64,000 nt of DNA from Maylandia zebra (taxonomy: Eukaryota; Chordata; Actinopteri; Cichliformes; Cichlidae). Every line of letters starts with the position of its first letter. Within the stretch, counting starts at the first letter, position 1. The position numbers and the translations under genes are program-made. Positions 20,775 to 39,666 of the stretch are shown piece after piece. The stretch is taken from the NCBI RefSeq assembly GCF_041146795.1, contig NC_135177.1, positions 7,232,560 through 7,296,559 of the forward strand. Direction: 5' to 3'. The notes beneath the pieces were generated by a model. The model had not been told where the DNA came from and searched no databases. It saw nothing but the letters and a program-made list of their open reading frames with translations.

Positions 20775-23700
20775 TGGAAAGAGCGTGGTCCCTCACCTGC
20801 CCCGCTCTCTGCAGGTTTCCAAAGTGGACGTCTGGAATGAAGAGAACGGGCTGGGAGTCCAGGTCTCCAATGCTTTTGAACAGTGCACTTTCAGCCCTCT
20901 TTATCGTGGTCAACCCCGAGCTGCCATTTTTCCCTAATCCAGAGGCAGTGTGAACTTAACATCTGTTGCCAAGCGACAACTTCAAGTACAGAATTGATTA
21001 CATTTGCAAACCTTTTTAAGTCTCAGTGTCCTAAGGTCAAGGATTTGTAACCTTGTTTCAGTGGATTTTAAAACAATATGAACAATTTTATTTCTGTAAA
21101 TAAATTGTAATCACGTTTTAGCAACAAACAAAACCAAAAAAAGGTTTCACCTTTCATACTCTTCCTGAGCTGCTTTTTTTCCTCGTCGCGAAGCTTCCTC
21201 TCAGCACCCTGCAAACAGAAAAAAAATGTCAGAATATGTTAAAAACAGGTTAAAAAGGTTTATCCAATTCCATGTTATTAGCTCACCGTTGAGCACATGT
21301 GCTAGCAGGCTTCTTTACCTTGTCACAGAAGACCTTAATCTGAGTATAGGCTCTGTGGATTGGCCTGCTGCCACAGCCGTTGTTGTAGCTGTACGTGTCG
21401 ATCTGAATAATCATAGGCATCCCCTTCACACCCTTCTGAGAGGAGAAGTCTGTGCTCAGACAGTTCACAGAGATAAAGACCTAGGAAGCAACAAAAAAAG
21501 AAATAAAAACAAAACATTCAGTTTTTTTAATTTTGTGACTTAAACTGAAGCAGAGATGATGATCATATAACATTGCTAAATCCATGCCATGCAGGGCAGG
21601 AACAAGAAGCAAGAACACCCAGACCTCCCTCTCCCCACCTTCTCCAGCTCATCTGGGAAAACATGTTCCCAGGCCAGCTGAGAGATGCAATCTCTTCAGG
21701 GTGTCATGAGTCTGCCCAGGAGGCCTTTGTCTAGTGAGACATGCCCAAAACAACTCACACAAAAGGCATCCTTGTCAGATGCCCAATCACCTTGATTTGC
21801 TCTTTTTGATGCAGAGGAGCAGCTCTACTCTGAGCACCTCTCAAATGACTACACTCTTCACCCTATCTCAAAGGGAGAGGCCAGCCACCCTTCAGAGAAA
21901 TCTCATTTCCACTGCTTGTATCCGCGACCTAATTTTTTTGGTCACTACACAGAACTCATTATCATAGGTGAGGACAGTAACGTAGACTGACAGCTTCGCT
22001 CTGACGTTTCGCTCTGTCTTTAACACAACGGGACAAGGCAATATCTGCAACACTGCAGCCGCTGCCCCAATCTGTCTGTCTGTCTCCCACTCCCTTGTCC
22101 CCTCCCTCGTGAACAAGACCCCAAGTTACTTAAACTCCTCCACTTGGGGCAAAAACTCATCCCTGACCTAAAGAGGACACTCCTCACTTTTCTGGCAGAG
22201 AAAGTATCCAATTAGTAGGGGTGCAACAACACACAAAATTCACGGTTCGGTTCGATACTTTGGTGTCACGGTTCGATATTTTTTCGATACAAAAAAAATG
22301 TTCATGCCTTTTTAATTTGTCATTTATTAAATTTTCACGGCACATTCCGCACCACATCTCTGTGCGTTCATCATTTGTTTGAAGCCAGCTCACCTCCTGC
22401 AACTACTTTTCCGAGAATACATGCTTCTTTTGTGGTTCGGACTCCTTCTGACATTTCTTTGGAGGTGGAGGAACATCACAGTAATTGCTTAAAGGAGCTT
22501 GCTTCTTCGACATCTTTAAGAGTTCTAAACAAATGTCTGTCCTCCTCCTGGAAATCTTATTTATTTATTTATTAACCTTTATTTAACCAGGAAGATCCCA
22601 TTGAGATTAAAAACCTCTTTTTCAAGGGAGACCTGGCCAAGATAGGCAGCAGCAGATGTCTCACAGTTACAGAAATTACTCAAACACAGGCAGCAACAAC
22701 ACACATGCAACAATAAGTGAAAGAATACAAATAAAATAAAATTCAATAAAATTCAAATAAAATAAAAAGTCAGTTAAAATGACAATCAATCTAATTGAAA
22801 CAGTTGCATGTTATGGACTTGGCCTCAAGGATTCGTAGTTTAGATTTAAAATCACTTAATGAAATGAATTCAGTCATTTTCCATTCCTTCTGCAGTTTGT
22901 TCCAGGCCGAGGGTGCTAAATGGACAAAAGCTCTTTTACCAAGTTCAGTTCGGGCAAATGGAACAGAAAGCAACAAGTAACCATGCGGACGAAGAGAATA
23001 CCGACCAGCATGTTTCATTACAAGCAGGGAACATATATAAGAAGGCAGCAACCCAAGTATCACCTTATATATAAAACTGTATAAATGAGAGTTCCTCCGA
23101 CTTACCAAAGCAGGCCATCCTACCTGAGAGTATAACTCACAGTGGTGAGTCTGAAATTTACAGTTAGTGATGAACCTCAGAGAAGCATGATACACAGAAT
23201 CAACCATTCGAAGACATTGAGCAGAAGCATTCATATATAGAATATCACCATAATCCAGCACAGGCAAGAATGCTGCAGCAACAAGCCGCTTCTTTGTATT
23301 AAAAGAGAAACACAACTTATTTTGAAAATAAAATCTCAGTTTTAACTTCAGGTTTTTCACAAGATTCTCTACATGTGGTTTGAAGGTAAGCGAGTCATCA
23401 ATTAAGATTCCCAGATATTTATAGGTGTGAACCAACTCTATTTTATTACCTTCAAGACTGGTTACTGATGGGATTGTTTGGGCTCGTCTCCTTGATTTAG
23501 AAAACAACATGAGCTTTGTTTTGTCTGCGTTGAGAACAAGTTTAAGCTGATGTAATGAGTGCTGGACAGCAGAAAAGGCTTTCTGCAAGGAGTCGATGGC
23601 TTGGACAAGAGTTGAACCACAGCTGTAAATAACTGTATCATCAGCATAGAAGTGCTGATGATACAGCACTTCTATGCTGATGTATGCAAACACGCGTTGC

Positions 23701-27500: not shown

Positions 27501-30500
27501 AATGTAACCTCTAACTGCAATTGATTTACATCGGACAAACAGACCAAGCACTATGGCTCATAATACAATTACACCTTACCTGTTTGGACTATATTTTTAT
27601 ATTTCATTTTTACTTGCTGCCAGGCACGTTTGGGGCCTGTTGGGTTGCACCTGCGCTCACATCACGTCACAAAATAAAATGTATAAAATAACAAATAAAA
27701 TAACATATGATAAAATAACGTGTTAAATGGGTGGAAATCCCTAGATCAATGTTTATATTAACACTCACGCATTGACTCTGTCGGCTATGTTTTGCCGTGC
27801 ATGCTCACTTTCTTTTGCAGCTGTCGCTGTGTTACTTTTTTCCGCGGAATTTGCATGTTATCGGCATATGCTGCCATCAGCATTTCGGCCTCAAGCGCTG
27901 TAAAATACATTGACCGCGCCTTCTTTCCCTCCGTCTCCATGGTGACTCGCTTAATCTGTGCTCCGCTTATCAGGGCTTTATGTATCCTCGTCCGCGCGCT
28001 TCACTTGGGGTTAAAGCAACTCCGCCTTGATTGAACTAATTGTTATCAGCCTTTCTGACACCGAATATTCCGAGTTGGACAGTTCGGGGTTACTCAACCG
28101 TGAGTGTCGTTTTTCACTCTGAGTTTTCCAAACCGGCTTCCTGAAACAGGGCCCTGACCCTCTACATAGCCCCCACCTAAGGGGTCAGTCGTCCCCGACG
28201 ACCTCATTACCCCACACAAAGTCCTGCAAATGTCCAGGTGCCTTCTTTTGGCGCACCGGCCGGTCACGACCGGCGGGGGGGGGGGGGAGTCACTCGGGTC
28301 AGAACATGGGGTGCCACCATCATCCCACTTCTGACACCAATGTGGCGAGCTCAGACAAGGAGGAGACGGAGGTATCGTTTGGTCTTGCTTCCCGTGAGCT
28401 AGCCAGGGAGCACAGCCGTTTATTGACATCTGCAGAAGAACACTGCCGCTAGCTAACTGCTCAGCGCGGCAACAGCACAGCAACAACAACACCACACAGG
28501 GCGCCCTCTGACCCCGGAAGGACACACCGTCGCAGCGAGAGGGCGTCACCCGTCACTATGGCAACATAAACAAAACATAACTGTACAAACAGAACCCCGA
28601 ACAGCCCTGACCCGCTACATAGCCCCCAACTAAGGGGTCAGTCGTCCCCGACGACCCCATTACCCCACACAAAGTCCTGCAAATGTCCAGGTGCCTTCTT
28701 TTGGCGCACCGGCCGGTCACGACCGGCGGGGGAAAAGTCACTCGGGTCAGAACATGGGGTGCCACCATCATCCCACTTCTGACACCAATGTGGCGAGCTC
28801 AGACAAGGAGGAGACGGAGGTATCGTTTGTCTTGCTTCCCGTGAGCTAGCCAGGGAGCACAGCCGTTTATTGACATCTGCAGAAGAACACTGCCGCTAGC
28901 TAACTGCTCAGCGCGGCAACAGCACAGCAACAACAACAACACCACACAGGGCGCCCTCTGACCCCGGAAGGACACACCGTCGCAGCGAGAGGGCGTCACC
29001 CGTCACTATGGCAACATAAACAAAACATAACTGTACAAACAGAACCCCGAACAGCCCTGACCCGCTACAATATATATCCTGCTGCTTTTACACACGCACT
29101 CACATAAGCTCAGCGATTCTCTGCGCGATCAACCTCTCACATGTTTAAGCTGCGGGAGATTTCACTTGTCATGTTTGCATAGTAAGCTAACGATTGATAA
29201 GACGATGTCAGAGGAATTGGTGCACAAATTATCATCATTCACCAATCAGTGCTGTCGCTCTCTATACACAGTTCGCGTGATTGCAAAGTGAAAGCAAAAA
29301 ACAAGCGCAAATTCAAACGGGATTTCAATATGTCACATATTGACAGTGGCTCACCGATGCCAATGACATAATTACCCAGCTACATTTCCGAAAGAATGCA
29401 AAAGCATTGACATATATTTTTCCTTCCTATGATAGGCAGACGGGCAGGGCAGAGATAGATTTTGGTAGCCCGACTGGAAAAATCGCTAGCCCGGGCAGGC
29501 GATTTTGCGAGCCCTGTATCTGATTGAGGAATCGCTCATCTTTGGAAAACGGACTTTATTACAGAGAAATGTCTCTTTCCAAAATAAAAGCTATACTATA
29601 CGCTTCTTCTGGGCTATATTCTCAGCAGCATATTAAACATATCAGGTCCCCATAAGAAGAATCATGTGCTAACCGCTGTCTAAATGACTCGGGTAAAGGG
29701 TAAAGTTTGTAGCATGCGTGCTTGTCGTTTTTGTCTGCTTCCACTTGTCTTTGCACTAGGGTGATGTCGGTGTAAATGTGCTGTCATATTTGTTGTGTTC
29801 CCACTAGTGCTGTCAGCATTAATCTCGTTGAAATGACGTTAACGCCACAACACGGCAAATCTCTGTTAACGAGCTACTGCGGGTGGCCCGGGGCTGGACG
29901 GCCAACACGTTAACGAGCTAACTGCCCTAACACACTAGCTCCCACCCATGTAATTGAGCATTGCGTGGCACATCCAATATACTGTTTTACTTTAGTCCAT
30001 GGCGCTTACCTTCAGGGTCATACGTCACATGAAAACCAAAATAATTCCAAACGCCAGATCTGAATGAGGGTGGGGGAGGTTCAATTTGCCATGTTGCAAG
30101 GAGAGCTTAACTTCTGTCTCAGTGAATCTGCGTTCGACTACTCCGCCTAAGCTGCACTGTCGAGCGCAGATCCACTGAGCGCTCAACACAGACAGCATCG
30201 TCAGAAGGAAAGTTGATAAAATAAATTAAAAATTTATTTTGTATTGTTTGATACATATGCATACTGAACCGAAAGCACTGTATCGAACGGTTCAATATCG
30301 ATACGAGTATCGTTGCACCCCTACCAATTAGGCACAATTTTTAGGGCCAAATATAACAACCTCAGTTTTGTCTGAAATTGAGAGAAAAAAATTACAGGAC
30401 ATATGGGTCTTTATGTCTTTTAGACAAGCCAGCCTGTACTTTCATCAATTGATTTTTGTCATCTGGCTGTTGTCATAGATAGATATAACTGGGTATTATC

Positions 30501-33500
30501 TGTATAGCAATGAAAGAGATATGCTAATAATAATAAAATGGCCAGCAAGTCAGGCCTCATACCAGCATGGGTATTCTATTTAGAACATATTCTTTCTATT
30601 ATAGTCCTGAGTTGATGTCAGGTTGAATACAAATTTCAATATAATCAACTTCTACAAGCAGAGCATAAAGTACATGCCGCACAGCTTATGGGCACTAGCT
30701 GCTGCACCAAAGTTTCCAGAAACTGGCCAATCAGAACAATGTGGGATCTTAGGGAGGGGTCCCTAAAGAGGCAGGCATAAAAATGGTGCATTTCAAATAA
30801 GAAAATCTTTGTTACAGAATTCCATTTCACTTTTGTAAACACCTGTAAAGCAATAAACAGCAACTTGCTATTAACTAAAAGGTATTCCTGCATTAGTTTA
30901 ACCATAAGAGCCCGTTATTAGTCAATATGTTTTCTAATGAAGCTGTATCTGACTCACAAACTGTGTGGTAATGATAGAAAGTTTAGAGGATCCATGAATC
31001 ACAACAGCAGCAGTTCACAGGCCACAACAACTCATAAGCCTCCTTCAAATTCGCATGTGTCAAGTAAAAACACTTCAAAGACACAGAGGTACAAGAATGT
31101 GGGATTTTATATAAAGAAATCAACTGTTTAATATTGTTTCAGAACCGCGAGTGTCCCAGATTTCAGAAATATATGGCTCTTCTCCACCCATTCCTCTTTC
31201 CCAGAGCTAAAGTAATTGGGCATAGCTGCAGATCTGCAGGTTATTAAAAGCTTGTGAAAAGAATTCACAAAATGTCACCCAAGTAACAGCACCATCCTAC
31301 CACTATTTTAATCATTTAGTGTGCTCTTTAAGCAATAATACATGTCATTATCTTAACACATTTAATTGCACAATGGAACAGATTCTCATGATTGGTGCCA
31401 AATCATCCAAACGGACAGAATTTCCACATGAATCTCCCAGCTAAACAGGACGGGCAGCTTCAGCAACAGGTCGGCAGAGACTGATCACGGTGGATTCATA
31501 ACTGCGGCTAAACACCAATTTTCCCACTACGCAGCATCAACAGCATCGTGTCTGAACCTGCAGAGGTGAGGGCTGATTGCTGGAAAAGCCTGGAGCACAA
31601 ATGAGCCTCCTACACACCTCCACAAATTCACACCTCCACAGACCCAAGCCATTTCAATTTTCTCCACAAGCGCTGGACGCATTGCTGCTAGCAGCGTGTG
31701 TATGTGTGCGTGGGAGGCTTGTTGTGTTTGCGCGATCCGCATGTGTAAGCGTACCTTCCTAAAAAAGGGGGGGGTGGAAACAAAGTTCACAAGGGCACTG
31801 CAGAGTGGCTGTTTAGTGCCATCCGCTCAACCAGCACAAACAAACACGAAAACAAGAGTTGTGTGCAGCAGGAAGCCACTCATCTCCCGCCCAAACCAAC
31901 ACATTTCACACTCTGTTACAAGGAGGTTGCCAACTGTTACCTGGCAACAGCCAAAGCATGCAGAAACAAAACATAACGTGTCCACCAAATAAAAAAAGTA
32001 TAGATATATTTATTTCATCTAAACTGGTGTCAAATTAGCAGTGGAGAGCTACATTTCTAAAAAGAAAAAAAAAAGATTATAGGAGTGACACGAGGCTTCA
32101 CATTTCCTCACAGTAACCCTATTGTTTTGTCCTCAACCTTTTCCACCTCATTTCCCCTGGGGGGTGGGGTCTGGCCTCATACTGGAGGCTTGTGAGTCAG
32201 AGTGCAGCAGAAAGGGTGAGAACCACTTGGCTCACATCTTACAGCACAGCCACACAGTGTAATCAGTGCTTCTAATGACCTAATTGATATTTAGTAGGAC
32301 AAATTGTATTCATTAGACAAAGCAGATCATATGCAAAACCCAGAAGAAGGGATTATTACAAACTGTGAATGATGACGAAGGGAGGATATCGTCACAGTTA
32401 AAAGCTAAATCCTCAGTGCTCTCACTTTCAAAATACCTACCACCTCTAAACAAGAGGCCAGACTACAGGATCATCCATGCTTTGAATATACATACTGGCA
32501 AAAATCCAAACATGCTGGTTACATTATTTATTTGTTTAACATGCATGAAGGTGCTACCATGGAATTTTGGCCAGAGCTTGAGAGAAAAGTTCAACCTCAC
32601 AGGGACTTCCTTGAGTTTCACTCACATTAAAAGGACTAAGATTCCTCTAATTTTGCACCTGTAGTATGTAGCCTGACATAAAAGTGATTTAACTACTAAT
32701 AATAAAAGGTGCCATCCGAGACAGTCACTTCCCTTTCTGTAAGACTAATGTAATGGTACACAGTGGTACACGATTGTGGTCAGGTGTACAATCACACACA
32801 CCGCTCGATGCAGTACCGTCACAGTACCGCCTGAACACACATTTAAAGCAATTACGGTTTGTGAAAAGCGTGTGCGCCACACAGTAAATATTTATCCACA
32901 AACCAGCAAAACGGCAATTACCCGTCTGTCAGCGAGGCAGTTTGAGAAGTTCCCATTAAAACTGGAGCTGAATGGGAGCCCCAGGGCTCAAAACACCTTA
33001 GGGTGGACTCATTCTTTAGTGTGTTTGTGGGTGTGTTTACACGCTGTGTGCAATTTGTCTTCATCCAACTAACCGACGTCACGGAGTAGAAACCTGAGCA
33101 GGGTTGTTTTCAAGGGTTTGTTGCCCTGTACCCGGCGTCTCTGCAGCCCCAAATAACCTGACACAAAGCAGGAGACACGCCTCCCGTCATCGGGGCCAGT
33201 CATACGATCCCTCAACTAGAGTGAGAGTATGAGGTATAAACAGTCCACTGACGCGGTTCAGCACAGACCAGGAGTCCTAAAGACAAAAACTTGCGCTTTT
33301 ATTAAGCAATCCTCCCCACACAGGGCTAAGAGTTTACGTCGTCTGACCTGTTCAGCTTCCATGGTGTGACACATACAGCCCCCCCCTCACCTTGGCTTCT
33401 TCACTGACATCCCATGTGAAAGACACAGCATTGTAGGCAATTTCCTCCACGTTCCCGATGTTGAAGCTCTCCTTGTAGTCAGCTGAAGGCAAATGGAGGA

Positions 33501-36500
33501 AACAGGAGAAGTTTGGCGTCAGATCTGTTAACATTTTGCCTGTCTGGAGGCACATTTTCTTTTTTGTGTATGAATTTTTCAAAACATAGTTGCATAACAA
33601 AAACAACTATACATTTATCTTTGTATCTTGCTATATATCTCTATATAATAGAGAGAGAGAGACCCTCCTCTTCGCAGATCCTCTCCAAGTCATTAATGTT
33701 TCATGCCTCATGTTTGGCAACTGGAACCTTCAGCTACCTCCACAGATTTTCTATAGGATTAAGGTCTGGACACTGACTCGACCACTCCAAGACCTTAACA
33801 TGCCTCTTCTTGAGCCAATCCTTTGTTGCCTTTCGTGTTTTGGATCATTGTCATGCTGGAATACCCACCCACCCCATTTTCAATGTCCTGGCTGAGGGAA
33901 GGAGGTTCTCACCCAAGACAGTACGTGTCCCCATCTCTCCTCCTTTGATCCAGTCCCTTTGGCAGAAAAAACACCCCCAAAGCATAATGTTTCCACCTCC
34001 ATGTTTGATGGCGGGGACGGTGTTCTTGGAGTCGTAAGCCACATTCTTTCTCCTAAAACATGGCGAGTTAAGTTGATGCCAAATAGGTCTCATCTGACCA
34101 CAACACTTTACCCAGTCCTCCTCTGAATCATTGAGATGTTCAGTGGTCTGTACATGTTCTTTCCAACTGTTTTCTTGGTGACTGGGTTTCCAGCTGCCTT
34201 GAGATCATTGACAAGTTCCTCCCGAGTAGTTCTGGGTTGGTTCCACAGTGTTCTCATTATCACTGAAACTCGATGAGGTGAGCTCTTGCGTGGAGCTCCG
34301 GACCGAGGGAGATTGGCAGTTATTTTATGGTTCTTCCATCTGCGAATAATCGCACCAACGGTCGTCACCTTCTCCCCCAGCTGCTTGGCGATGGTCTTGT
34401 AGCCCATTCCAGCCTTGTGTAGCTCCACAGTCTCGTTCCTGACATCCTCAGAAAGCTCTTTGGTCCTGGCTATGGTGCAGAGTTTGGAATCTGGATGGAT
34501 TGATTGCTTCTATGGACAGTTATCTTTTATACAGGTAACAAATTAAGAAGGCTCCCAATGTCAGCTCGTTACCTGGATAAAATATACCTGGGAGCCAGAA
34601 ATCTTGCTGATTGATGGTGAGCAAATACTTATTTCATTCATGAACATTTGAATATTTCTTTTTTATTATTGTTCTGTCTCTCACTGTTCAAATAAACCTA
34701 CCGCTGAAACTATAGACTTATCTTTTCTTTGTTAGTGGGCAAAGCTACAAAATCAGTAGAGGTTCAAATAATTTGTTCCCTGACTGAGTGTCAACTAAAT
34801 TTTTGATTGTTCATACTGATCCAAGAACTCATAAAGACATACAGTATACTTATTTAGTAAGTGGTTGAGGCAGTGATCATTTCCCAAACTAGGAAACTGC
34901 TCCCTCTGAGTCAGAACAACAATAACAGTTAACATTCCACCGTTTCTCTCCTACAGTAGCATTTTGTCTTTAAATCCCATTACAGGCAGCATGTCTATTT
35001 CATTATCTCATATTTTCAACAGTTCACAACACTCCACCATTAACTCCAAATACACTGCCTTATTTTCACTCTCCCACCTTGTCTGTGGCAAGTTCATGCC
35101 AATACTTGCCATGAAAATTCACCAGAGTTTATGACACCTGGTTCATTCCTTTCGGTTTTAAGCCACAGGCTGGGGCACGTCTTTTGCTGAACGCACATGA
35201 TATGGCTACAATCCAAGCCCCCACCTATTTCTCCTGTTAACGTCTATGCAAACATAGACCCATAAGCGTCTTTCCACAGCACTCCTGTGGGAATTCAGGC
35301 TTGACTGTTATTCAAATTATATCAGGTTTCAGCTCTGGATATGTGACAGGATTCTCCTGGAGCCTCCTGTAAGACTGCCACCTACTTAGTCTCTCCTTAA
35401 ATGGTTTTGTGAGGTTTAGGTGAAAATATCTAGTAGTCCCCATCTACACCATTATTGTACAGGTAGTGAGGACAGAACGTCTTACCGATGTCCAGCACTC
35501 TCTGCTTGGCAGTGTGCTGCCTTGAGTGCCAGTATTTCCAATTCTTCAGCTGCTCATCTCTGCCCTTGTCGTCCCCAAAGACAACCATGATAACACTCTA
35601 CAGGAAAATATGAAGTAGAATAAGGTCAAATATTTCACACTACTGAGTGATCAAGTCCTCAGCCTCCTCCATCTTCCCTCACTCACCTGTACAATACTGT
35701 TCTGTGGCAGCTCAGAGCCTCCCACGGTGCACTGATCACTCCTGGATAGACTCCTATCAGCTCCATGGGATGATGTCACTCCAGTCACTCCGACTTTCCC
35801 TCTGGGCTGATGCAGGGATGATCTGAAGCCGGCCGCAGAGAGCGTCAAAGGGTAGAACTGGCCGCGGTTCAAGTAGGCCATGGGTCCTTCTCCTTGGCGT
35901 GGCCGGAGAGATAACGTGGCCTCCAGGTTGTACCGGAAGCTGTCACTGTAAGGACATAATGGGCTCCATAACTGCCATTGGTAAGATGACTACTAAAACA
36001 ATGACAGGTGAAAGTAAAATATAAAACTGAATGTTATTAAATATAGCCTTATACACTCTTCCTAATATATAGTTTAGGCTTTGAAGTCTAAATCCTGTGT
36101 GTGCCAATAAGGAAACTGGACTACAGTCATTGAACTCTTGCAATCCTTGACAATATTAATATTTGATAAAAAATTAATGACTTAAGACAATCTTTTAAAA
36201 TGAAGGACATCCTAATCTAAAAATCAAATTATATACCAGCTTCTTTCATTTTAGAAAAACTCTTTAAGTTGATGCTTGTGCACTAGAAAAACTCTATTCC
36301 TGTCATATTATCAAATTAAAGCAATCACAGCCAAATGGAGGAACTTGTTAAAACTTTAAAACTTTCACTCTAGGAGAGCAGATTAATGCCGGTGTATGTG
36401 ACTCAGTAAAAGAGGTCAAGCAACAGCAGATAGTCAGCATCACCTTTGACATACTAAACACATTACTGTCCAGAGGTAAATACTTAAATCAACATTTTAA

Positions 36501-39500
36501 TCATGGGGGGGGGGGTGAAATGAGCAGATAAGAAGATTGCGAGGAACTCTTTAAAGACACTTATGACTCTAAACAAACTTGAGCCCAACATACACTCAAC
36601 AAAAACTTTATTACTAGTGTCCCTTTTGCTTTCAGAACTGTGTTAATTCTTCATAGTGTAGATTAAACAAAGTGCTGGAAAATTTCCTCAGAGACTTTTT
36701 TTTCCACATTGCCATGACATGCCGTGATTTCCGGGGCTGCACATCCACGATGAACATCTCCAGTTCTACCCAAAGTTGCTCCACTGGATTGAGATCTGAT
36801 AATTGCGGACACGAGTACAGTGAACTCATTGCCATGTTCAAGAAGCCGCTTTGAGATGCTTTGAGTTTTTTGACATCATTATCCTGCAGGAAGCAGCCAT
36901 GAGAAGATGGTACACTGTGGTCAAAGGGATGGAGGTAGACAGCAACAACACTCAGGTAGTGCTGTGGAGTGTAAGCGACACTGTTGGCACTAAGGCATCT
37001 GCAGTGCAAAGAAAATATCTCCCACGCCGTCACACCACCACCAGCCTGAACCGTTGATTCAGTGCAGGATGGATCCATGCTTTCATGTTGTTTAAATTAG
37101 GTCTTAACCATCCACCTATTGGAGCCAAAATCATCAAAATCATCCAACCACGCAATGTTTTTTCCAATCCTCTATTGTCCGATTTTGATTCCTACTGTCT
37201 TCTTCTTAGCGGGCAGAGCAGCTGTAGCCACAACACACTGAACCACAGTTCAGTGTGTTGTGTGTTCAGAGATGCTCTTCTTTTTTGGAACAAGTGGTTA
37301 TTTGAGTTACTGCTGCCTTCCTATCATTTCAAGGCAGTCTAGCCATTCTCCTCCAACCTCTGTCACTTAAATCACCTTTCTTCTTCATTCTGATGCTTAA
37401 CTTGAACTTCAGCAATTCATCTTGACCATGTCTGCTTGTCTGAATGCATCCAGTTGCTGCCAAGTGATTGGCTGATCAGATCATATTGTGTTAACAAGCA
37501 ATTGAACATTGCATTGCATTTTGTACCAAACAGCGTGGCCAGTGAGTGTGTGTCTGGGCCGCATAGATTCATTGAAACACACCGAAACCCTGGTTAACCT
37601 TAAAAAACACACATTGCAGTTTCTTTAGACTTAAACCCCCACATACACCATTCTTCCAAAGCACTGAATGAAGGTTAATCCAATGCTGAAAATAGTTCCA
37701 TAAGTTCCGCCTGCAGTGTCATGTTAAGGAAACTGTGACTGACTTTACAGGTTTTATTTTGTTTATAATGTTTTGCATGTTTTGATTTGATAGCTTTACG
37801 CAGGATGCCCTTCGTGATGCAATGAATGTGGTTGCAGCTTCACAGAACAATCACAGTAAATGGGGAAACTTAAACGGTGTTTATGTTTTTTCCCCACATG
37901 AGATTTGTTGGCAATTTTTTTTTTAAAAAGCACCTAAAATTCATAGTCATTCTTCTCTCAGGATAAGATGTGTGCACATAAATGTTATTCTAATTTTTTG
38001 TAGTATCGCCATGTTTTTAAACTTACGCTGGTAGACTGTGGTGAAATTCATCGACTCCCGAGGAAGAATTTTTATGGTACATCTGTAAAAGAAGATACTA
38101 ATGAGCAAACTATTCATGTAAAAAGAAATAATAATGAAAAAGGAGTTTGTATCAAATAAAAAAAAAATCTTATCAGTATCAACAAAACTTGTATAGCAAC
38201 AACCAACAATTCTATTCAGATTAGGTCTGACCTCTTTTTCCACTGGCTCCTCATACGTGCTGTCCAGACTGCTCCTCTGTTCGTCTTTCAAATAGCCAGT
38301 GAGGGACATATCATAACAGCTTTGCTCATACAGCCTCCTTATTTGGTCTCTAGGCTCTTTTTGGCAGGTGCCACCAGAAAATGAAAGTGGCATGGGGGCC
38401 TGGCTTTCTGTCTTGACCAGAGCAAGAGGTCCATTCTCTCCACCTTTACCATCTCCTTCTCTAGAATCTCCTGCGTGGCTTTCAGCTCCATATTTGTAGC
38501 CCTGCTGGTGCTCAGTGGTTGTGCTGTTGTTTAAAGAGAGGTTAACAGGCAGTGACACCATAGCTTGAAGCTGGTGACCCACCATGTCCAACTTTCCGCA
38601 GTTGCTGTGCCCATGAGCAGAAGGCTCTGTGGGCTTAATGGCACTGGGTGTATACCGCTTCTCTCTGGGAACCTGAAAGGATTATGACAAGTCCAGAAGC
38701 AATTCAGACCTAAAATAAATCAGATCATTGTATGTGGCAATGTCCTTTATTATTCTTTGTTTCATACCTTATAGTAGTCATACAGCACCCCTAGAGCTGC
38801 TGGACTGTTCTCATCTCCATTGATGTTCATCATGGCCTTTGAGGCAGCTGTCAGTGGGTTCTCCAGGAAGATTTTCCATGCCTAAAATAAATCAGATAAT
38901 TATAAGTGGCAATATCCTTTATTCTTCTTTGTTTCATACCTTATAGTAGTCATACAGCACCCCTAGAGCTGCTGGACTGTCCTCATCTCCATTGATGTTC
39001 ATCATGGCCTTTGAGGCTTCTGTCAGTGGGTTCTCCAGGAAGGTTTTCCATGCCTCATCCTCACTGCCGAGCGGTTTGCGATGGGCCACCGACACTTCGT
39101 TTGGTACCACCACCACCAGCCTTTTGCTGGGAACGACCGATGGGAAAAGACAGAGAGGCATGTTATTACTACAAAGTCATTCTTTCATTAACAGAAGCCA
39201 GTGCCAAGCCACTAAAAATGCCCCAGGCTGTTTCTCACCAGACTTCACTCAAATTGCCTGCTCCATGTGGAGCATGTTTATTTAAGTCCACTTTTGCTGG
39301 TATATCTTTAAAAATGAACCAGTGGAAATGAAGTCATTCAGAGATATTGGCATGAAGATAAATTTCGTCTGACATCGTGGTAGTTCTTAATTTTCAAATT
39401 TTTGTGAAATCTTTCATAATAATGAAAGCATAAACGAAACCAGTAACGTTTATGTGCAGGTACGTGAACGGTAATTAACTCATTCTAAAATAAATTATAT

Positions 39501-39666
39501 TAGTTTAGTTTAGTAATTTGTGTCCCTGGGGGTGTTTATATAGCATAGGCTCCAGTGCACATCTACTAGCAAGAAGACAAAAAATATATCTAAAAGGAAC
39601 TGGACTAAAACTGACAGAAGTTATTATCAGTGATGCTAAAACTTTCTCTTACCTGTCCAGGTCCAT
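19117..39666 (-). CDS. grhl2: Grainyhead-like 2 transcription factor (15 coding exons plus one duplicated exon)
   Basis: Minus-strand coding exons in order: 39653-39666, 38940-39126, 38232-38672, 38027-38082, 35687-35945, 35486-35597, 33391-33482, 21319-21480, 21151-21208, 20797-20933, 20590-20627, 20274-20365, 20102-20187, 19566-19630, 19117-19231. They sum to 637 aa in perfect phase, against about 625 for human GRHL2. An extra in-frame exon at 38768-38881 would make 675. The N-terminal activation region has SEDEAWK and LENPLT. The CP2-type DNA-binding domain shows [29 protein letters not shown] and [17 protein letters not shown] ubiquitin-like dimerisation end has [14 protein letters not shown] and [13 protein letters not shown]2 activates epithelial junction genes such as cadherin in the nucleus. 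Neighbours ncald and znf706 identify grhl2 rather than grhl1 or grhl3. The exon 3 donor (GTCAGA) is weak. Intron 7 is swollen to 11.9 kb by transposons. Confidence 0.95.
20706..20773. repeat. (TG)n microsatellite in a grhl2 intron
   Basis: This TG run of about 68 bases lies in the 169-bp grhl2 intron between exons 20797-20933 and 20590-20627. In the transcribed (minus) direction it reads (CA)n and starts only about 24 bases after the 5' splice site. Confidence 0.95.
21600..22203 (-). mobile_element. LINE fragment, reverse-transcriptase C-terminal part (RTE/Rex3-like)
   Basis: The plus strand carries phrases such as GCAGAGGAGCAGCTCTACTC, TTGTATCCGCGACCTAAT and CTCGTGAACAAGACCCC, known from a very common fish LINE. 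On the minus strand these decode to the region after the polymerase core: [28 protein letters not shown] and RSRIQAVEM. Frames are broken, so it is a dead 5'- and 3'-trimmed copy. A second, shorter fragment of the same family is at 52255-52450. The clade assignment is from memory. Confidence 0.65.
22560..23663 (-). mobile_element. 5'-truncated LINE with an open RT C-terminal frame (Rex1/L2-like)
   Basis: A minus-strand frame open from 23747 to 22791 encodes, from about 23663, [10 protein letters not shown] (the catalytic YADD of reverse transcriptase). Thumb and C-terminal sequence follow: [41 protein letters not shown] and [10 protein letters not shown]. The element therefore begins almost exactly at YADD, with fingers and endonuclease absent, which is typical 5' truncation. 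The 3' UTR at 22560-22790 has AACCTTTATTTAACCAGG read on the plus strand and ends in an ATTT-rich tract. About 290 uninterrupted codons suggest a fairly recent insertion. The first residues of the long frame belong to flanking hAT DNA. Clade within the Jockey/L2/Rex group is uncertain. Confidence 0.8.
23639..23682. repeat. Perfect 19-bp inverted repeat at the LINE 5' junction
   Basis: Arms at 23639-23657 and 23664-23682 are exact reverse complements around a 6-base loop (ATGATA). The left arm is the YADD-coding end of the LINE and the right arm repeats it in reverse at the border with hAT DNA. This looks like a short inversion or fold-back formed when the LINE integrated. Confidence 0.85.
24541..24590. 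repeat. (CAA)n(CAC)n expansion inside LTR 2
   Basis: All LTRs carry a short CAACAACAAC block near their middle. In LTR 2 it is expanded and followed by CAC repeats, which explains why this LTR is about 30 bases longer than its sisters. It gives the minus-strand frames poly-Leu/Val stretches that are artefacts. Confidence 0.85.
25388..26669 (+). CDS. Harbinger (HARBI1-like) DDE transposase, 4 exons, intact
   Basis: Exons are 25388-25820, 25897-26009, 26095-26206 and 26287-26669. Phases close to a 346-aa protein, the length of HARBI1-type nucleases (about 349). The N-terminal third (MACPFLEEP onward) holds a helix-turn-helix-like region with SKATVCRAV. The DDE_4 catalytic residues are all present: D154 in [10 protein letters not shown]204 in [11 protein letters not shown] and E265 in [11 protein letters not shown]. 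The late motif CVILHNIA is typical of the family. The enzyme would cut at the element's ends with help from the Myb-like partner encoded 90 bases downstream on the other strand. Introns are 76-85 bases with GT-AG ends. I found no stop or frameshift. Expression or activity is not shown by sequence. It could be a recently silenced copy. Confidence 0.9.
26759..27940 (-). pseudogene. Harbinger Myb/SANT-like DNA-binding protein, frameshifted
   Basis: Minus-strand gene of the Harbinger. Exon 1 starts at 27940 ([20 protein letters not shown]) and would end at 27769. Exon 2 is 27650-27580 ([19 protein letters not shown]). Exon 3 starts at 27407 ([20 protein letters not shown], then [12 protein letters not shown]). 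A further exon at about 26965-26910 reads [20 protein letters not shown]. The last, about 26842-26759, reads [19 protein letters not shown] and ends in TAA. In exon 1 the frame of [11 protein letters not shown] is one base out of step with the start. The break lies at a run of six T on the plus strand (27836-27841), so a one-base loss there is the likely cause. In the family this protein carries the transposase to the nucleus and to the element's ends. Sequencing error in the homopolymer is possible. The later exon borders are approximate. Confidence 0.75.
30332..30560. repeat. LINE (L2-like) fragment beside the hAT element
   Basis: The words AACAACCTCAGTTTTGTCTG, GGTCTTTATGTCTTTTAGAC and CTGGGTATTATCTGTATAGC belong to the same long fish repeat family as the 3600-4150 relic, as I remember it. 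No open frame is present. The hAT element appears to have inserted at or within the edge of this fragment. Confidence 0.5.
30561..33390 (-). other. Rest of grhl2 intron 7, no gene seen
   Basis: This lies between the nested transposons and the exon at 33391-33482. There are several short open frames but none with recognisable motifs. A C-rich tract sits just after the donor of the upstream exon (33380-33386). Confidence 0.6.
33640..34790 (-). mobile_element. Tc1-like transposon relic in a grhl2 intron
   Basis: Read on the minus strand from about 34490, the frame gives [20 protein letters not shown], then [17 protein letters not shown] and RRWKNHK, the paired helix-turn-helix of Tc1 transposases. 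After a stop it continues in another frame with [13 protein letters not shown] (34093-33851) and then HDNDPKH, the second catalytic Asp region. Stops and frameshifts make it inactive. The right end (about 34763-34788) shows GGTTCAAATAATTTGTTCCC, a Tc1-like terminal sequence. The left end dissolves in a TATA/GA-rich tract near 33630 and no matching repeat was found, so it is truncated there. Confidence 0.85.
36590..37552 (-). mobile_element. Second Tc1-like transposon relic (different family)
   Basis: The minus-strand frame 37078-36632 reads [15 protein letters not shown], then a degraded middle with FLQDNDVKK and [15 protein letters not shown], the DD34E end of a Tc1-like transposase. Further upstream (37100-37500) broken frames match the N-terminal part of the same family. 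The ends are CACTCAACAAAAACTTTATT near 36595 and GGCCAGTGAGTGTGTGT near 37540, a decayed inverted-repeat pair. It lies in the grhl2 intron between exons 35687-35945 and 38027-38082. It differs from the 33.6-kb relic in sequence, so the two arrived separately. Confidence 0.85.
38709..39052. repeat. 172-bp direct tandem duplication covering a grhl2 exon end
   Basis: Copies are 38709-38880 and 38881-39052. Each holds the 3' part of coding exon 2, its donor site and intron sequence down to CCTAAAATAAATC. Counting by eye they differ at about nine positions with no length change, so the event is not a fresh assembly error. The junction of the copies creates the TTATTTTAG acceptor used by the extra exon. 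Confidence 0.92.
38768..38881 (-). other. grhl2: Duplicated grhl2 exon (in-frame extra copy of coding exon 2)
   Basis: This is a 38-codon, phase 0-0 exon candidate lying between coding exon 2 (38940-39126) and the next exon (38232-38672). It starts after a good acceptor (TTATTTTAG) and ends at the same GTATG donor as exon 2. It encodes [18 protein letters not shown], then [13 protein letters not shown] and VLYDYYK, differing from the exon 2 copy at three residues (T to I, E to A, D to N). Splicing exon 2 to this copy would repeat 38 residues of the activation region. Joining exon 1 directly to it would shift the frame, so it can only be an added exon. The intron between the two copies is only 58 bases (38882-38939), which may be too short to splice efficiently. 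Confidence 0.75.

Follow-up and report, generated by a model that had tools for sequence, protein, structure and literature searches.

The question raised by this locus is whether a small tandem duplication has given a grainyhead gene of this fish a second copy of a coding exon segment, and whether that copy is likely to enter the mRNA. The investigated window, i.e. the whole analysed stretch of 64 kb, is part of contig C11 in a genome of 962 Mb and 63 contigs. A repeat search of positions 38200-39600 revealed a single two-copy direct repeat (38709-38880 and 38881-39052, spacing 172, 95% identity), and TRF applied to the whole window returned the same array at 38709-39055. Two adjoining 172-bp copies thus occupy the 3′ end of exon 2 of a grhl2 gene on the minus strand, with 163 of 172 positions identical. 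Direct comparison of the copies showed exactly nine mismatches, where the original prediction had counted about nine, and no indels; the intron part (58 nt) holds five of them and the exon part (114 nt) four. The duplicated unit consists of the last 114 nt of exon 2 and 58 nt of intron. Copy A (38881..39052, minus strand) comprises the 3′ part of exon 2, its donor and the next 58 nt, and lies upstream in the gene (39052-38881). Copy B (38709..38880, minus strand; read 38880-38709) comprises the extra exon segment and the start of the native intron, and continues into the remainder of that 95-nt intron. On the minus strand, copy B runs from TTATTTTAG|GCATGG to TATAAG|GTATGA.

A match of 172 nt at 95% excludes chance. 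As a rough estimate of the base rate, one 10-kb piece was drawn from each of contigs C1-C20 of this genome, always at the same position (20 pieces, 200 kb in total, 15 kb of which were N), and none contained a two-copy tandem repeat with a period of 100-600 and at least 90% match. TRF reported five rows with a period of at least 60 in this sample, all with 75-86% match. The duplication was established on assembled sequence, in which the array might also have resulted from two haplotypes or a chimeric read placed end to end. Such an artefact is, however, highly improbable, as the copies differ at nine sites (5%), the join has just 3 bp of homology, the contigs are long (63 for 962 Mb; the 20 inspected measured 31-70 Mb) and, among the best candidates listed, the repeat pair occurs at a single place in the 962-Mb, 63-contig assembly, with the same sequence found nowhere else.

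Gene identity was determined by tblastn with human proteins. The grhl gene extends on the minus strand from about 39.7 to 19.1 kb, flanked on the plus strand by ncald (from 1365), a 14-3-3 gene (from 50018) matched by the ywhaz probe, which was the sole 14-3-3 probe tried, and pabpc1 (from 60803). The genes ncald, ywhaz and pabpc1 form the neighbourhood of human GRHL2. A DNA-binding-domain exon at 21319-21480 matched Pfam CP2 (E 1.4e-22), and among solved structures GRHL2 (5mr7, 8.1e-25) ranked first by a narrow margin over GRHL1 (5mpf, 1.4e-24). No counterpart of the small grhl2 exons for human residues about 219-246 was found in the window.

A search of the genome with the exon 2 protein gave four places among the best candidates listed, namely copies A and B and one place each on contigs C19 and C21. 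The best match of the C19 place was GRHL1. The C21 place (C21:16891353-16891523) has a 10-residue stretch in common with the window gene, and its exon 2 showed 78% identity to the GRHL2 probe (2.7e-29) and 70% to that of GRHL1 (4.0e-29), with E-values that are nearly equal. The exons of the C21 gene that were seen are those matching human residues 7-367. No direct repeat of at least 40 nt was present around the exon in C21 grhl2 or C19 grhl1. Over the 38 residues of the duplicated segment, C21 differs from human GRHL2 at 2/38 positions and the window gene at 7/38 in copy A and 7/38 in copy B. In this segment the C11 gene is the faster-evolving and less constrained of the two putative grhl2 ohnologs. 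Because of its larger number of residue differences from human GRHL2 the window gene is called grhl2a here, and the C21 gene grhl2b; these names were given from divergence and not from a tree. The earlier assignment of the locus to grhl2 was right as to the gene, with the correction that, of the two grhl2 genes, it is the one that has diverged further. Zebrafish is reported to have both grhl2a and grhl2b, with little known on grhl2a (PMC5730563).

GRHL proteins carry an N-terminal activation domain (PMC7471608), of which the AWK...DYYK segment encoded by the duplicated sequence would be a part. Exon 2, the candidate exon and exon 3 matched no Pfam family up to an E-value of 1, and exon 2 gave one match in PDB (E 1.7), which was read as chance. 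A structural RNA was considered as well, and no Rfam match at the gathering threshold was obtained in the 64-kb window.

The gene model around the copies, all on the minus strand, begins with the 14-nt coding part of exon 1 (ATGGACCTGGACAG, 39653..39666), which was translated and its donor scored. Exon 2 (38940..39126; 187 nt, 62 residues) matched human GRHL1 and GRHL2 as well as the grhl1 and grhl2 paralogs in the genome. It is followed by the new intron between the copies (38882..38939; 58 nt), the candidate new exon B (38768..38881; 114 nt), the native 95-nt intron after copy B (38673..38767) and exon 3 (38232..38672; 147 codons, phase 0 at its start, with a predicted 3′ end). Sequence comparison and translation agreed with the original prediction that exon B has 38 codons, phase 0 at both ends and no stop, and that its donor is unchanged, the donors of copies A and B being identical. 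The description of exon B as a second copy of a grhl2 exon held for gene, strand and frame, but only the 3′ 114 nt of the 187-nt exon were copied.

The breakpoint could be read from the flanks of the unit. The flanking sequence is TTTTAGGTCTG on the intron side and GATGAGGCATGG on the exon side, and the new junction reads CTGATTTATTTTAGGCATGG. The trinucleotide AGG, located at 38881..38883 (minus strand) at the junction, is common to both flanks, and so intron and exon were joined by a 3-bp microhomology. An origin by head-to-tail duplication through this microhomology is well supported by the sequence. In the proposed mechanism, one such event via AGG would have duplicated the terminal 114 nt of exon 2 together with the first 58 nt of the intron, so that a T-rich AG, until then internal to the intron, came to precede the copied exon segment. 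This AG, now the end of the new intron, is a cryptic acceptor in the native intron, where it scores 7.83, and it reaches 8.82 at its new position. As had been claimed, the junction itself forms the AG|G acceptor. The outcome would be an in-frame cassette exon plus a new 58-nt intron, i.e. an "imprecise" intron gain by tandem genomic duplication.

Between copies A and B there are 4/114 exon differences, whereas C21 differs from them at 27 and 28/114, respectively. On this comparison, and with the paralogs unduplicated, the two grhl2 genes separated long before the duplication, which would have arisen in the lineage of this fish. An origin before the grhl2 split was ruled out by the same counts and by the lack of a repeat in C21 and C19. 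Divergence of the intron parts amounts to 9.2% (Jukes-Cantor). At assumed rates of 3 to 10 substitutions per site in a billion years, this corresponds to an age of roughly 5 to 15 million years.

Splice sites were scored with a small matrix derived from 20 introns of the window, which is not a trained predictor. The 20 were kept from 26 attempted junctions: grhl2 E2-E3 was dropped as it holds the duplication, grhl2 E3-E5 and pabpc1 2 gave no model, and grhl2 E5-E6, E9-E10 and E10-E12 were ambiguous. The exon B acceptor (8.82) equalled the native acceptor (8.79), and the 20 reference acceptors ranged from -0.4 to 16.7 in leave-one-out scoring. Of further grhl2 sites that were scored, the E5 and E12 acceptors and the E11 donor were set aside for an offset of a few bases, and the E10 acceptor for its ambiguous junction.

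The original prediction had named the length of the intron in front of exon B as the weak point, and rightly so: at 58 nt it is shorter than all 20 reference introns of the window, the shortest of which is 88 nt. This minimum depends on the choice made for junction pabpc1 10, where models of 72 and 111 nt tied and the 111-nt model was taken for its usual-looking splice sites. The likely lower bound of intron size was put at about 75 bp in a survey of 172 vertebrate species (PMC9438311); the 58-nt intron lies under it, although exceptions are known. Human data give a minimal distance of about 50 nt between 5′ splice site and branch site, and at 35 nt assembly was abolished on one model pre-mRNA, E1A (both in PMC6692369). 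Branch points were guessed from motifs. In the native intron, CTGAA (A at 38704, intron position 64) is the probable branch point, with its A 31 nt before the acceptor and no AG between. CTGAA is located five bases past the duplicated unit and hence was not copied. The stricter yUnAy matches CTGAT and TTTAT (native positions 48 and 52) are within the unit and were copied; in the new intron the donor is 47 and 51 nt away from them, but the acceptor only 10 and 6 nt. The candidate with the best spacing there is CTTAT (38903, minus strand; putative function), at distances of 36 nt to the donor and 21 nt to the acceptor; copy B has CATAC at the corresponding place. The candidate motifs of the new intron thus show 5′ splice site to branch point and branch point to 3′ splice site distances of 36/21, 47/10 and 51/6 nt. 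SPF45 assists the splicing of a 56-nt intron of human HNRNPH1 in which 27 nt separate the 5′ splice site from the branch site (PMC8363638), so a length of 58 nt is not prohibitive. Inclusion of exon B would accordingly be hard but not impossible.

It was also observed that, of the five sites in the new intron (38882-38939) at which the copies differ, four are T in copy A, among them intron positions 35, 38 and 42, and that the T residues at positions 35 and 38 make up the CTTAT match. This pattern is suggestive of an adaptation of the new intron; the changes are not polarisable.

Three products can be predicted from these sites. If exon B is included, 38 codons are added in frame. If it is skipped, the copy A donor is joined to the native acceptor over a 267-nt intron and the ordinary protein results. 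If the 58-nt intron is retained, the reading frame passes through AAG GTA TGA, giving ...LYDYYKV and an immediate stop. Mutually exclusive use of the two copies was rejected, as copy A lacks its own acceptor and joining of exon 1 directly to exon B shifts the frame, the 14 nt of coding exon 1 being followed by a phase-0 exon.

The reading that we prefer, with confidence only a little better than even, is that exon B is a newborn cassette exon that is mostly skipped and perhaps partly included. Skipping would predominate because the intron is smaller than the usual minimum of vertebrates and lacks a branch point that is both well spaced and sufficiently distant from the donor. The bulk of the mature mRNA would then join the copy A donor straight to the native acceptor, a minority would include exon B, so that the N-terminal region repeats its AWK...DYYK segment of 38 residues, and part of the unspliced product would reach the stop. 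The second grhl2 gene, better conserved over the exons seen, would make these costs in splicing tolerable. The copy B donor counts against skipping as the default, since it is identical to that of copy A, nearer, and backed by the native 95-nt intron. If the copy B donor won over the copy A donor, skipping would not be the default, and the 58 nt would either be spliced out or the mRNA lost.

A rival reading, in which the ultra-short 58-nt intron is spliced and exon B is included constitutively or commonly, giving grhl2a a doubled AWK...DYYK segment, is one we regard as doubtful. It is consistent with the open frame, the good acceptor and the good donor of exon B, and with the human 56-nt intron that is spliced (PMC8363638). 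It is opposed by a length below the vertebrate lower bound (PMC9438311) and by the 36 nt between donor and best-spaced branch-point candidate, which falls below the published steric threshold (PMC6692369). The T residues of copy A at four of the five differing intron sites, two of which create the CTTAT absent from copy B, would fit inclusion; five differences are, however, too few for this and cannot be polarised. The in-frame nature of the junction also bears on the matter. Among all pairs of breakpoints in exon 2 and intron, modelled on an old allele composed of the exon 2 of the window and the intron of copy B, 316/12,616 (2.5%) yield an in-frame open exon with an acceptor of at least 7, and 247/316 of these use the same AG at intron position 58. 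The low share of such junctions mildly favours that exon B matters, with the reservation that the finding was chosen for being in frame. A fuller form of this reading, with substantial inclusion of exon B as an AWK...DYYK tandem repeat, a branch site that may have arisen after the duplication, and a paralog further altered by a 34-codon extension of its DNA-binding-domain exon (see below), we likewise consider rather unlikely. The original prediction of an expressed isoform with the duplicated exon is possible but not indicated, the intron being shorter than both the 88-nt minimum of the window and the bound of about 75 bp (PMC9438311).

Divergence between the copies was then compared with expectation for a coding exon. 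The four exon differences fall in three codons, all of them replacements from A to B (T4I, E12A and D25N). The number of codons with synonymous-only differences was 0 over 25 (24.8) synonymous sites, with 89 nonsynonymous sites. Both C19 and C21 have Ala at position 12 and Asp at position 25, so copy A changed at 12 and copy B at 25. At position 4, where both have Ser, the Ile of copy B is probably the derived state. Thus copy A, which is always translated, has itself changed a conserved Ala to Glu at codon 12, and with about two derived coding nucleotides in each copy, B is not decaying faster than A, a point in favour of inclusion. Comparison of exon (4/114) with intron (5/58) divergence gave p = 0.17 by Fisher's test, while the binomial probability of at most 4 changes in 114 with the intron rate fixed was p = 0.028; both values are given because they point different ways. 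Lower divergence of the exon, which would favour inclusion, is thus seen by the binomial and not by the Fisher test. There are too few data to show constraint on exon B. Purifying selection on it was considered and set aside, with three replacement codons, no synonymous-only codon and the two p-values of 0.17 (Fisher) and 0.028 (binomial). The argument that the changes are conservative enough for exon B not to be simply decaying was not borne out, as all three codon differences replace a residue and the Fisher test gave p = 0.17, although the binomial value of 0.028 leans towards that view.

A second rival reading is that the duplication is mainly damaging, with the copy B donor competing, the 58 nt retained and a TGA following LYDYYK-V, so that grhl2a is being lost while the other grhl2 carries the function. 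We judge this unlikely. The immediate stop in the retained 58 nt and the presence of two identical donors would agree with it, as would the faster change of C11 relative to C21 over the 38 residues and a second grhl2 that is stop-free in the exons seen. The remaining coding exons of the C11 gene matched by the probes are, however, open, and the loss of the donor of exon 5 is matched by a strong in-phase donor downstream. In C21, this exon of the DNA-binding domain ends in ...AAAGTCCGG|GTGAGC (score 9.3), its donor being CGG|GTGAGC, and the C11 homologue has GGA|GTGACT (-2.0), i.e. the ancestral donor is lost. C11 has another donor of that phase, CAG|GTGAGT (11.1), 102 nt further downstream, and the frame is open up to it, an indication that the gene still keeps its reading frame. 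Our reading is that grhl2a is probably still translated but loosely constrained. If the downstream donor is used, which is likely, the DNA-binding-domain exon is extended by 34 codons (35687-35788, minus strand), and an intron of 89 nt remains.

Several known systems resemble the newborn cassette exon that we favour. Imprecise intron gain by tandem genomic duplication, as described in PMC3443670, likewise creates a new splice site, an intron and added coding nucleotides at the junction. In grhl2a, the duplication is head-to-tail and its junction bears a splice site, the latter predicted from sequence. The grhl2a unit, in contrast to that work, spans the exon-intron border, so that the donor is old and only the acceptor new; its junction is AGG and not the full AGGT, and its intron is a candidate by sequence. 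The "precise" form, with an AGGT protosplice site at both ends, was not found, since the junction has AGG followed by CATGG and the donor is AAG|GTATGA. Tandem exon duplication and duplicated exon substitution (PMC9013439 and PMC9741552) likewise place adjacent homologous coding exons in one gene. In those systems the copies serve as complete, interchangeable exons that exclude each other, whereas the grhl2a copies share only the 3′ 114/187 nt and exon B is additive.

A close teleost precedent is dmrt1 of Solea senegalensis (PMC7605655), also a transcription-factor gene, in which part of an exon lies within a tandem duplication. Its duplicated exons II and III were recovered from cDNA, and the authors did not see the duplication in 45 other fish species. 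The Solea duplication exceeds 10 kb, comprises several exons and was linked by its authors to a SINE, whereas that of grhl2a measures 172 bp, was joined by microhomology and is read from genomic sequence. In the tandem exons 4a/4b of OGDH (PMC7969005) and in alpha-tropomyosin (PMC6692369), joint splicing is limited by a short distance between 5′ splice site and branch point. In both pairs one exon excludes the other, and that of OGDH is ancient and under regulation; in grhl2a the short distance would only cause exon B to be skipped. The grhl2a duplication is a fresh instance of tandem exon duplication or imprecise intron gain. A report of an exon duplication in grainyhead or grhl2 was not found in the literature searched, which comprised open-licence papers, and the statement that no such grainyhead isoform has been described is consistent with this search.

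If exon B is spliced in, the locus would be a clean natural vertebrate case of one small duplication making an exon and an intron together, would test the lower size limit of fish introns, and would encode a grainyhead protein with a doubled N-terminal module. With substantial inclusion, a young, structurally remodelled grainyhead factor would have been caught early. If exon B is skipped, the locus would show how one of two sister genes absorbs a change in exon structure.

Two further observations concern other parts of grhl2a. In a conserved stretch of the DNA-binding domain at 33391-33482 (minus strand), a one-residue in-frame deletion relative to C19 and C21 was observed. Within an intron of 11.9 kb, two direct copies of 450 bp (TRF 96%) are located at 28151-29069. 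On the minus strand they have ends resembling those of a long terminal repeat (TGTAGCGGG...GCCACA), followed by TTGGTGTCAGAAGTGGGAT, which resembles a primer-binding site; they are perhaps a non-coding terminal-repeat element.
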